Of a stretch of DNA of 64,000 nt, positions 51,709 to 55,041 are shown piece by piece. The stretch is from Pseudacidovorax intermedius (lineage in GTDB: Bacteria > Pseudomonadota > Gammaproteobacteria > Burkholderiales > Burkholderiaceae_C): positions 1 through 64,000 of the forward strand of contig NZ_LDSL01000030.1 in NCBI RefSeq assembly GCF_001476815.1, in the 5' to 3' direction. A model generated the notes under the pieces. It had not been told where the DNA came from and searched no databases. It worked only from the letters and a program-made list of their open reading frames with translations. Each line of letters opens with the position of its first letter. Position 1 is the stretch's first letter. The position numbers and the translations under genes are program-made.

Positions 51709-53025
51709 ATGTCGCCTGTTGACAGCACAACGTCTCCCCCGGCCGCCGCGCCTGCCTCGTCTCCCGCCATCCCATCGGCCCCGTCTTCGCAGCGCCACCA
51801 CATCCGCCTGACCTCCCATGCCGGCGGACTGGGTTCGCTGCCCATCCATTGGGATGCCGCCACGCCGGCCGAGCGCGGGCCCGTGGTGGGCACCACCACG
51901 CGGCGGGCGCACCGCAACGTCATCGGCACCCACAGCGGCAGCTACAGCGTCTACCGCGCCCTCGCCGTGGCGGCCGGCGCGCTCAAGCGGGAGCACCGTG
52001 CGGACCTGACCAACACCTCGCCCACGGATGCCATCGGCCCCTATCCGCAGTGGGGCGAGCCGGGCAAGATCGTCTCCCTCGATCCCTGGGGCGCGGTGGT
52101 GTCCGATGTGTATGCGCAGGAGATCGCCGCCGGCTACGACATCCGCCCGACCATCGCCGTGACCAAGGCGCATGTGATCCTGCCCGAGGTCATCGACGCG
52201 CTGCAAAAAGGCCGGCTGAAGGCCGACGGCAAGTTCCTCACGGCCGGCGGTGCGGCCCTGGTCACCAAGGCCGCCATCGAGCCCGTGTGGTGGCTGCCCG
52301 GCGTGGCCAGGCGCTTCGGCTGCTCCGAGACCGACCTGCGCCGCGTGCTGTTCGAAGAGACGGGCGGCATGTACCCCGAGCTGGTCACGCGATCCGACCT
52401 CGAAGTCTTCCTGCCCCCCATCGGCGGCCAGACGATCTACATCTTCGGCAACCCGCGCGACCTGACGAACCCGGAGGTCGAGCTCACCGCCCGCGTGCAC
52501 GACGAATGCAACGGCTCCGACGTGTTCGGCTCCGACATCTGCACCTGCCGGCCCTACCTCACGCATGCCATCGAGGAATGCATCCAGGGCGCGCAGCGCG
52601 GCGGCGTGGGCCTCATCTCCTATGCGCGCAAGGAAGGCCGGGCACTGGGCGAGGTGACCAAGTTCCTGGTCTACAACGCCCGCAAGCGGCAGGTCGGCGG
52701 CGACACGGCCGACCAGTATTTCGCCCGCACCGAATGCGTGGCCGGGGTGCAGGACATGCGCTTCCAGGAGCTGATGCCCGACGTGCTGCACTGGCTGGGC
52801 ATCCGCAAGATCCACCGCCTCGTCTCCATGAGCAACATGAAGTACGACGCCATCACCGGCTCGGGCATCGAGGTGGGCGAGCGCGTCAACATCCCCGACG
52901 ACCTGATCCCGGCCGATGCCCGCGTCGAGATCGACGCCAAGATGGCGGCCGGCTATTTCACCCCGGGCAAGGTGCCCGGCGCTGAAGACCTGAAGAACAC
53001 CCGCGGCAGAGGACTGAACGAATGA
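51709..53025 (+). CDS. URC1-like GTP cyclohydrolase II homologue
   Basis: A 438-residue protein whose C-terminal half is a GTP cyclohydrolase II fold. The zinc-site pattern HDEC-GSDVFGSDIC-C is present (ARVHDECNGSDVFGSDICTC), with RKEGRALGEV replacing the RibA RQEGRGIGL loop, and a long N-terminal domain of about 180 residues not found in RibA. This matches URC1 of Lachancea (Saccharomyces) kluyveri, needed for uracil catabolism. GAGGG precedes the ATG. It is the first gene of the URC unit and overlaps the next by ATGA. Confidence 0.9.
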   Translation: MSPVDSTTSPPAAAPASSPAIPSAPSSQRHHIRLTSHAGGLGSLPIHWDAATPAERGPVVGTTTRRAHRNVIGTHSGSYSVYRALAVAAGALKREHRADLTNTSPTDAIGPYPQWGEPGKIVSLDPWGAVVSDVYAQEIAAGYDIRPTIAVTKAHVILPEVIDALQKGRLKADGKFLTAGGAALVTKAAIEPVWWLPGVARRFGCSETDLRRVLFEETGGMYPELVTRSDLEVFLPPIGGQTIYIFGNPRDLTNPEVELTARVHDECNGSDVFGSDICTCRPYLTHAIEECIQGAQRGGVGLISYARKEGRALGEVTKFLVYNARKRQVGGDTADQYFARTECVAGVQDMRFQELMPDVLHWLGIRKIHRLVSMSNMKYDAITGSGIEVGERVNIPDDLIPADARVEIDAKMAAGYFTPGKVPGAEDLKNTRGRGLNE

Positions 53026-54350
53026 CGGCCGGACAAGGCGCCCACCCCCTTTCTGACTCTGACATGCGCCAGCCGGAGGCCGCCGCCGCTTGGCTGCGCA
53101 CCACCACCGCGGTGCGGGAGCGCGCCGCCGAACTGCTGGCACGCGCCCGCCGCGGCGACTCCGGGTTTTTCACCATCGGCGACGGCAGCACGCTGGACGA
53201 CGCGGCCCGCGAGGTCGTGCAGGCCACCCAGGCGCGCTATGCCTGGCGGCCCATTCCGTACCACAGCCGCTGGCGCCATTTCGAGGCCGGCGGGGTCGAC
53301 CGCTCGGCCGAGCTGGACCGCCTGCTCGGCGACCATGCCACGCCGCGCATGCGCGCCCAGGCGCGCATCGACCTCGCAGTGGTGAGTGTGCTGCTCGATG
53401 CCGGCGCCGGCGCCGACTGGGCGTACCACGAATCGGCGTCGGACCAGCGCTTTTCCCGCTCCGAAGGGCTGGCGGTGGCCAGCTTCCATGCCTTCACCGC
53501 CGGCCTGTTCTCGTCCGACCCCGACCATCCGTTGCAGGCCGATGCCGCCGGCCTGCGCGGCTTGGTGGCGGACCGGCTGGCACAGGCCTTCCAGGTCCGT
53601 GCCGACAACCCGCTCGTCGGCCTGGACGGCCGCGTCACCCTGTTGCGCCGCCTGGGCGAGGTGCTGGCGGAGCAGCCGCAGGTCTTCGGCACCGAGGTAC
53701 AGCGGCCGGGCGGCCTCTTCGACATGCTGATCGCGCCCGAAGGCGTGGAAGTGCCGCCCACGGCGACCGTGCAGGTACACGACATCCTGACGCTGCTGCT
53801 CGAATCCCTGTCTGCCATCTGGCCGACCGGCAACTACCTCCACCGCGAGCCCACCGCCCTGCCCGGCCCCGGCGAGTCCGGCCTCGCCCTGGGCGACTGC
53901 TGGCAGCACAGCGGCGTGGGCGGCGACGGCCATACCAAGGGCTGGGTGCCCTTCCACAAGCTGTCCCAGTGGCTCACCTATTCGCTCATCGAGCCCTTCG
54001 AATGGGCCGGCGTGAAGGTCGAGGGCCTCGACGCCCTGACCGGTCTGCCCGAGTACCGCAACGGCGGCCTGCTGCTGGATGCCGGCGTGATCGTGCCGCG
54101 CGATGCGGCGCTGCTCGCGCGCAGCTGGCAAGTGGCCGACGAATTCATCGTCGAATGGCGCGCCCTGACCGTGGCATTGCTGGACGAGCTGGCGCCCTTG
54201 GTGCGCAAGCACCTCGGCCGCGACGCGGACGCGATGCCGCTGGCCTGCGTGCTCGAAGGCGGCACCTGGGCCGCCGGCCGCGCCACGGCCGAGCGGCTGC
54301 GCGGCGGACTGCCACCGCTGCGCATCGACAGCGACGGCACCGTGTTCTGA
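53022..54350 (+). CDS. DUF1688 protein, URC4 homologue
   Basis: A 442-residue protein of the DUF1688 family, the bacterial and fungal homologues of URC4. Signature segments are [38 protein letters not shown] and [16 protein letters not shown]. No general catalytic motif is recognisable. In yeast, URC4 mutants fail to use uracil as nitrogen source. Its ATG overlaps the URC1-like gene's stop, so the two are translationally coupled. Confidence 0.92.
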
Positions 54351-54408
54351 CGGCCGCGCCGCCCTGCTCTACCATCGCCGCCTTCGTTTTCTGCCTGAAC
54401 AAGAACTC

Positions 54409-55041
54409 ATGACTCCCAACGCGCACCTGGTTTCGCACCCCCTGGTTCAGCACAAGCTCACGCTGATGCGGCGCAAGGATGCCTCCACCAACAGCTTCCG
54501 GCGGCTGCTCAACGAGCTGGCCTCGCTGATGGCCTACGAGGTGACCCGCGACATCCCGACCTCGGAGATCGAGATCGAGACGCCGCTGGAGATGACCCGC
54601 GGCCAGGTGATCGACGGCAAGAAGCTGGTGTTCGTGTCCATCCTGCGCGCCGGCACGGGCATCCTGGACGGCATGCTCAGCGTCGTGCCCGGGGCGCGCG
54701 TGGGCCACATCGGCCTGTACCGCGACCCCAAGACGCTCACGGCCGTCGAGTACTACTTCAAGATGCCCAGCGACATGCAGGAGCGCGACATCGTGGTGGT
54801 GGACCCGATGCTCGCTACCGGCAACTCGGCCGTGGCGGCCGTGGAGCGGCTCAAGGAGCTGTCGCCCAAGTCGATCAAGTTCGTCTGCCTGCTGACCTGC
54901 CCCGAGGGCCTGAAGACCATGTACGAGGCGCATCCAGATGTGCCGGTGTACACGGCGGCCATCGACCGGCAGCTCAACGAGCACGGCTACATCCTGCCCG
55001 GGCTGGGCGATGCGGGCGACCGGATCTTCGGCACTAAATAA
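54409..55041 (+). CDS. upp: Uracil phosphoribosyltransferase
   Basis: A 210-residue enzyme converting uracil and PRPP to UMP. The PRPP loop [20 protein letters not shown] and the uracil-binding C-terminus ([25 protein letters not shown]) are intact, and the N-terminus ends [23 protein letters not shown], typical for Upp. In the yeast URC pathway, URC6 is also a uracil phosphoribosyltransferase. Here upp is 58 bases after the URC4 homologue and ends the pathway unit. Confidence 0.96.

Follow-up and report, generated by a model that had tools for sequence, protein, structure and literature searches.

A Qng1-like fold predicted for DUF1688 (URC4) in a bacterial uracil-catabolism cluster

The first 64,000 nucleotides of contig NZ_LDSL01000030.1 of Pseudacidovorax intermedius (the window) carry, at positions 51709-55041, consecutive plus-strand genes for a URC1-like protein, a DUF1688 (URC4-like) protein and the uracil phosphoribosyltransferase Upp. 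The locus raises the question of whether these genes form a bacterial URC (uracil catabolism) cluster and, if so, which reaction falls to DUF1688. We consider it very likely that this is a bacterial URC cluster, with a route, set out below, in which URC4 would cleave a glycosidic bond. We also regard it as reasonably probable that DUF1688 is a free-nucleotide N-glycosylase of the superfamily of Qng1 and the helix-hairpin-helix glycosylases. The value of the locus lies in DUF1688, which is common to bacteria and fungi and is still entered in Pfam as a family of unknown function.

Gene content and conservation of the cluster

The core genes and their predicted products are:

51709..53025, plus strand: URC1-like protein, predicted UTP cyclohydrolase of the GTP cyclohydrolase II superfamily, 438 aa (family matches and identity to 7eev)
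53022..54350, plus strand: URC4 (DUF1688), predicted N-ribosylurea (5'-phosphate) N-glycosylase with a Qng1-like fold and predicted active-site residues E344 and K313, 442 aa
54409..55041, plus strand: upp, uracil phosphoribosyltransferase (URC6 role), 210 aa (TIGR01091 274.5 bits, cut-off 208.35)

The URC1-like protein matches Pfam GTP_CH_N (2e-79) and GTP_cyclohydro2 (8.5e-16), and its 802.5 bits to NCBIfam PRK07198 (cut-off 403) place it in the URC1 family. The product of 53022-54350 covers the full DUF1688 Pfam model (1.4e-141). At 53022-53025 the letters ATGA hold both the URC1 stop and the URC4 start. These matches and coordinates confirm the consecutive and overlapping arrangement described in the original prediction, a reading of this DNA made from the sequence alone.

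The co-occurrence search proposed at that time was run on a phylum sample of 398 genomes, the window's own included. DUF1688 is present in 26 of these, and PRK07198 exceeds its cut-off in 26, with some match at E <= 0.001 in 300; the listed matches below the cut-off span the cyclohydrolase domain only. The two sets are the same 26 genomes, own genome among them, an overlap whose chance probability would be 2e-41 for independent genomes; these genomes are not independent. URC1 adjoins DUF1688 in all 25 of the other DUF1688 genomes, so the clustering is far beyond chance, and in 22 of the 25 the 1.5 kb fetched includes upp; it is missing from L004 and L013, and from L010, where the contig ends.

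A scan of named species yielded at least 577 relatives, from which the best 80 loci were kept, presence of a gene being scored as a match over half of the query or more. The loci come mostly from Variovorax, Ramlibacter, Rhodoferax and kin, plus Mycobacterium, Mycolicibacterium, Gordonia and Rhodococcus. Among these best 80 of at least 577, URC1 is found in 79, upp in 75, a cytosine deaminase gene (CodA) in 32, a Bmp binding protein and an ATP-binding cassette (ABC) ATPase in 27 each, two permeases in 26 and 25, and a nucleosidase in 14. By these counts the conserved core is URC1-URC4-upp, and the importer and deaminase are optional. In the sole locus without URC1 (L041) the sequence ends at or near the gene, as it does in four of the five loci without upp (L046, L070, L072 and L117). 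The fifth, L052 from a Variovorax metagenome-assembled genome, does not end there; the 2 kb 3' of its URC4 (2589-3902) hold no upp, and K313 is changed, so this copy may be decaying. In L104, L106 and L116 upp is 2.3-3.1 kb away. The actinobacterial loci among the best 80 (L063, L067, L087, L095 and L107) have URC1-URC4-upp without the Bmp importer, and another uracil uptake system must therefore serve there. Taken together, the families, the linkage, the 80 loci and the shared set of 26 genomes support the URC-type cluster that had been proposed.

Predicted functions of URC1 and URC4

The closest solved proteins to URC1 are PDB entries 7eev and 7ej3; 346 of 420 residues (82%) are identical to 7eev, and no clear difference was found. 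We take 7eev to be the structure of UTP cyclohydrolase, and the paper behind it is reportedly that of Zhang et al. on this enzyme (ACS Catal 2021). Zhang et al. 2021 is cited for the URC pathway in an excerpt of PMC12507026. The bacterial version had been described as little studied, which is not borne out as stated: bacterial URC1 and URC4 and the conservation of their cluster appear in excerpts of PMC3869809, and a close relative of URC1 has been solved (7eev). The cluster is of a known kind, and URC1 is better documented than had been held.

Alignment with E. coli RibA (2bz0) pairs its C54/C65/C67, Y105, D126 and R128 with C267/C278/C280, Y322, D349 and R351 of URC1, all of which are kept in 26 of 26 sequences. 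In E. coli RibA the cysteines bind zinc and the Tyr and Arg are catalytic. After the cysteine pair, RibA G68 and Q70 are replaced by R281 and Y283. With the zinc and catalytic residues kept and the residues after the cysteine pair different, URC1 should work like a cyclohydrolase II, on another base.

For URC4 we obtained an AlphaFold2 model with a predicted local distance difference test (pLDDT) score of 90.3 and a predicted template modelling (pTM) score of 0.90. A Foldseek search with this model returned 11 hits at E <= 0.001, all of them DUF2419/Qng1, the next hit being at E 0.56. DUF2419/Qng1 is the queuosine-5'-monophosphate N-glycosylase of queuosine salvage. VIA-align places the model on Qng1 with a Z of 27.8 and a root-mean-square deviation of 3.1 over 327 aligned residues, the next fold, that of DNA glycosylases, reaching at most Z 10.0. 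A second model, built from 16 other sequences (Actinobacteria, Marinobacterium and Rhizobacter; 394 residues, pLDDT 91.6), again gave 11 Qng1/DUF2419 hits (best 7.4e-10), with a Z of 28.4 and the next fold at Z 11.3. In both cases the predicted likeness to the Qng1 entries (7u07, 7u91, 7ulc and 7ugk) extends over >300 residues. The link came from the fold. In sequence searches of the PDB, a single-sequence search with DUF1688 had no hit up to E 10, and a profile search had one chance-level hit, a protein kinase entry at E 1.5.

Profiles were compared with hhalign using five DUF2419 proteins from genomes of the phylum to which a Rhodococcus locus belongs, where Pfam Q_salvage genes occur in 5 of 178 genomes; none was found in 200 genomes of the window's phylum or in a set of 6 genomes, the controls giving no match in either. 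DUF1688 aligned to these proteins over 293 columns (score 47.7, E 1.2e-5, probability 81%). With 104 DUF1688 sequences the score was 46.45, compared with 27.74 for the best of 100 column shuffles and 20.65 for the reversed profile, and the control of URC1 against DUF2419 scored 20.6. The second DUF1688 set scored 35.65 in the same register. The sequence link between DUF1688 and DUF2419 is weak, yet above the controls.

Two Qng1 entries, 7u5a (K199C) and 7ulc (D231N), name mutated residues. In the Qng1 alignments K199 is the Lys of YKRAQ and D231 the Asp of FADY; 7ulc, the D231N variant, duly has Asn at the latter place. Aligning the profiles brings K199 to K313 of DUF1688 (HKLSQ) and D231 to E344 (LPEYRNGG), and an E-x-R in a C-terminal helix is likewise in register. 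All 104 DUF1688 proteins (26 from alignment A1 and 78 from the 80 fetched loci) keep E344, and 103 keep K313, L052 being the one exception. L107 and L111 must be the two loci lost to the length filter, since their match starts before an in-frame stop; both are in the second set with corrected starts, where the corresponding Lys and Glu do not vary (16/16). Unlike Qng1, URC4 has a Glu for the Asp, is about 100 residues longer, falls below the Q_salvage cut-off and is encoded beside URC1.

Qng1-like enzymes break an N-glycosidic bond, as the conversion of ribosylurea to urea requires, and URC4 would therefore fit this step, releasing urea and ribose phosphate from N-ribosylurea 5'-phosphate. That its substrate would be a 5'-monophosphate is suggested by the cyclohydrolase II arginine kept in URC1, which in GTP cyclohydrolase II takes the alpha-phosphate, and by Qng1 having been solved with a 5'-monophosphate (7u91). 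If URC1 keeps this arginine chemistry, a 5'-monophosphate would be left and the two enzymes would fit together. Our proposal, which we judge somewhat better founded than an even guess, is that DUF1688 cleaves urea off N-ribosylurea 5'-monophosphate in an active site that includes E344 and K313, and that URC1 supplies that compound through cyclohydrolase II chemistry in which pyrophosphate is lost. Some DNA glycosylases clear broken pyrimidines (urea) from DNA, endonuclease III being one that takes out urea residues, and in metabolism the URC1-URC4 pair would play the corresponding part. The HhH-GPD DNA glycosylases (endonuclease III, AGOG and OGG1) are a second-tier fold match to URC4, with Z of 11.3 and less and about 190-230 residues aligned, and we suggest no DNA-binding role for DUF1688. 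DUF2419 is itself likened to DNA glycosylases in an excerpt of PMC9406330, in agreement with these second-tier matches.

The original prediction had called the chemistry of DUF1688 unclear. As to its role this goes too far, since the step from ribosylurea to urea is in print (in an excerpt of PMC7530994); as to fold and mechanism it stands, no description of either having been found. The link between DUF1688 and Qng1 was not found in the open-licence literature, and may be in print elsewhere. New here, within that literature, is a testable proposal of fold, residues and substrate for DUF1688; a fold relative of known reaction, two residues and a substrate make the unsettled last URC step simple to assay.

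The proposed route and its alternatives

In the route that we propose, cytosine would be deaminated to uracil, and uracil, or nucleosides cleaved before they reach the cytoplasm, would be imported via the Bmp/ABC importer. Upp would convert uracil to uridine monophosphate (UMP), and cell kinases would raise UMP to uridine triphosphate (UTP). URC1, as a zinc enzyme on the GTP cyclohydrolase II plan, would open and fragment the uracil ring of the nucleotide, yielding N-ribosylurea phosphate and a three-carbon fragment (malonate semialdehyde; 3-hydroxypropionate in yeast). URC4 would hydrolyse the N-glycosidic bond, giving urea and ribose phosphate (ribose 5-phosphate from the 5'-monophosphate), and a urease encoded elsewhere in the genome would free nitrogen from urea. 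A urease alpha gene is present on a contig other than that of the cluster (C110, 1.8e-54).

The URC route in print, in excerpts of PMC7530994 and PMC3869809, runs from uracil through ribosylurea to urea, with 3-hydroxypropionate. The fungal systems (URC1/URC4/URC6 of Lachancea kluyveri and urg1-urg3 of S. pombe) comprise genes of these three kinds, which form a cluster in S. pombe, and share the proposed passage via ribosylurea to urea (excerpts of PMC7530994, PMC2174524 and PMC3869809). Unlike these, the cluster in the window is a bacterial operon with an ATGA overlap and with an importer and a cytosine deaminase attached. At the urea step this genome has a urease whereas yeast, in the excerpts consulted, has urea amidolyase; only urease was searched for here.

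Several points weigh against the URC reading as a whole. Each reaction, that of URC4 included, is a prediction, as are the uptake step and the number of phosphates on the compound that URC4 would act on. The molecule in 7eev, taken here to be UTP cyclohydrolase, was deposited under the name 'GTP cyclohydrolase II'. The 80 loci, being the best matches to the query, lean to close relatives, and the presence of RutA in this genome means that the URC cluster need not be its main uracil route. For URC4, sharing a fold with Qng1 is no proof that the reaction is shared, DUF1688 has Glu in place of the catalytic Asp of Qng1, and K313 is Asn in L052. Q_salvage appears as second family in 5 of 26 DUF1688 members, with a best E of 0.055 that lies below the cut-off (25 bits; L004 scored 12.8, and the window's own URC4 gave no match), and the hhalign probabilities are 81% and 78%, or 30% with the second set, against five DUF2419 sequences. 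The predicted status of the activity, the Glu and the weak Q_salvage link would also suit a URC4 that is a urea-releasing amidohydrolase or a ring-opening partner of URC1, its Qng1-like fold reflecting shared ancestry only, and a two-part enzyme would likewise account for the way URC1 and URC4 always occur together in the sample. We think this unlikely, given that the fold match is far above background in two models, that the two positions altered in the Qng1 crystal variants correspond to residues conserved in 104/104 and 103/104 proteins, and that an excerpt of PMC7530994 places URC4 at the step from ribosylurea to urea. Hardly credible is a flavin-supply cluster in which URC1 is a second GTP cyclohydrolase II of the riboflavin pathway. 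The Pfam GTP_cyclohydro2 match, the name 'GTP cyclohydrolase II' that NCBIfam gives to PRK07198 and the kept zinc and catalytic residues speak for it, whereas URC1 scores 47.3 bits against the RibA equivalog TIGR00505 (cut-off 205.85), carries R281 and Y283 at the RibA G68 and Q70 places, and is linked to DUF1688 in 25/25 genomes and 79/80 loci, mostly also to upp. The genome encodes a separate RibA domain protein on contig C190, and this and the low equivalog score disfavour the riboflavin-only role that the original prediction had itself named as the case against it.

A URC route with URC4 as glycosidase has also to be set beside the other uracil routes of this genome. As rutA, rutC and rutD are present (L125 825-4094, from C79) beside the URC cluster, the genome has, to judge from its genes, two uracil-degrading routes. 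The Rut pathway resembles URC in that it also frees nitrogen from uracil, and differs in its genes, its chemistry and its contig; the genome's one RutA match is on C79 and is not part of the URC cluster. PreA had no match in this genome at E <= 1e-80. The cluster might then be mainly a salvage unit of transport, cytosine deaminase and upp, with URC1/URC4 forming a side branch to Rut that is minor or used conditionally. The rut genes and the clustering of importer and CodA are in keeping with this, as is the lack of a recurrent gene for malonate semialdehyde: none was seen by eye, from first residues, among the 45 most widespread neighbour families in a crude open reading frame clustering of the 80 loci, which is not proof of absence. 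We hold this view to be doubtful, as URC1-URC4-upp is the conserved core, with importer and CodA varying between loci, and 22 of the 26 URC genomes are without RutA at E <= 1e-100. At that threshold RutA is present in 4 of 26 URC genomes and 27 of 398 overall (P(>=4) 0.09, non-independent genomes), and PreA at E <= 1e-80 in 1 of 26 and 69 of 398 (P(<=1) 0.04, likewise non-independent); these counts give nothing firm on mutual exclusion of URC with other uracil routes. With rutA in the genome, a growth effect of a urc knock-out could be masked. The claim of a complete catabolic unit was overstated, with urease on another contig, no malonate semialdehyde gene seen among those 45 families and rutA, rutC and rutD present.

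Neighbouring genes

Downstream of upp, transporter genes (Bmp, ABC ATPase and two permeases) lie within 55416-60965, and two promoter-like sites precede URC1:

51534-51563, upstream of URC1: second promoter-like site (consensus match only)
51660..51688, plus strand: promoter-like site, TTGCCA / 17 nt / TACATT, directly upstream of URC1 (consensus match only)
55416..56417, plus strand: Bmp/PnrA-like substrate-binding protein of an ABC importer (PF02608 1.4e-40; start inferred from relative L043); in 27 of the 80 URC4 loci
56431..57351, plus strand: PNP_UDP_1 / MTA-SAH-nucleosidase-like protein (family matches); in 14 of 80
57348..58922, plus strand: ABC importer ATPase (family match); in 27 of 80, or 26 without L106
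58919..59986, plus strand: ABC importer permease A (BPD_transp_2); in 26 of 80
60036..60965, plus strand: ABC importer permease B (BPD_transp_2); in 25 of 80
62797..64000, plus strand, running past the window end: cytosine deaminase, CodA (PRK07572 791.1 bits, cut-off 438); in 32 of 80

The ATPase count is 26 rather than 27 if L106 is set aside, where the match has 30% identity and lies ~8 kb upstream. The cytosine deaminase is complete beyond the window end (L124, an extended stretch of the same genome, 797-2152). The two promoter-like sites are all that were found in 51400-57500, compared with a mean of 0.2 in shuffled sequence, and no structured RNA leader was found in 44000-64000 at Rfam gathering scores.

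The nucleosidase-like gene sits between the binding-protein gene and its ABC ATPase gene, and its product has by eye an N-terminal lipobox-like, lipoprotein-type signal (LAGC). It is possibly a periplasmic nucleosidase; if extracytoplasmic, it would supply free bases to the importer.

Divergent from URC1, at 47836-51567 on the minus strand, is a 1243-aa frame that by eye resembles a multi-domain sensor kinase. It is probably unrelated to the URC cluster, as a half-length match occurs in just 1 of the 80 URC loci. In two Rhizobacter genomes (L104 3830-5798 and L106 6567-9901) phnN immediately precedes URC1, and L106 has other phosphonate genes upstream; phnN encodes the ribose 1,5-bisphosphokinase that forms phosphoribosyl pyrophosphate, the co-substrate of Upp.

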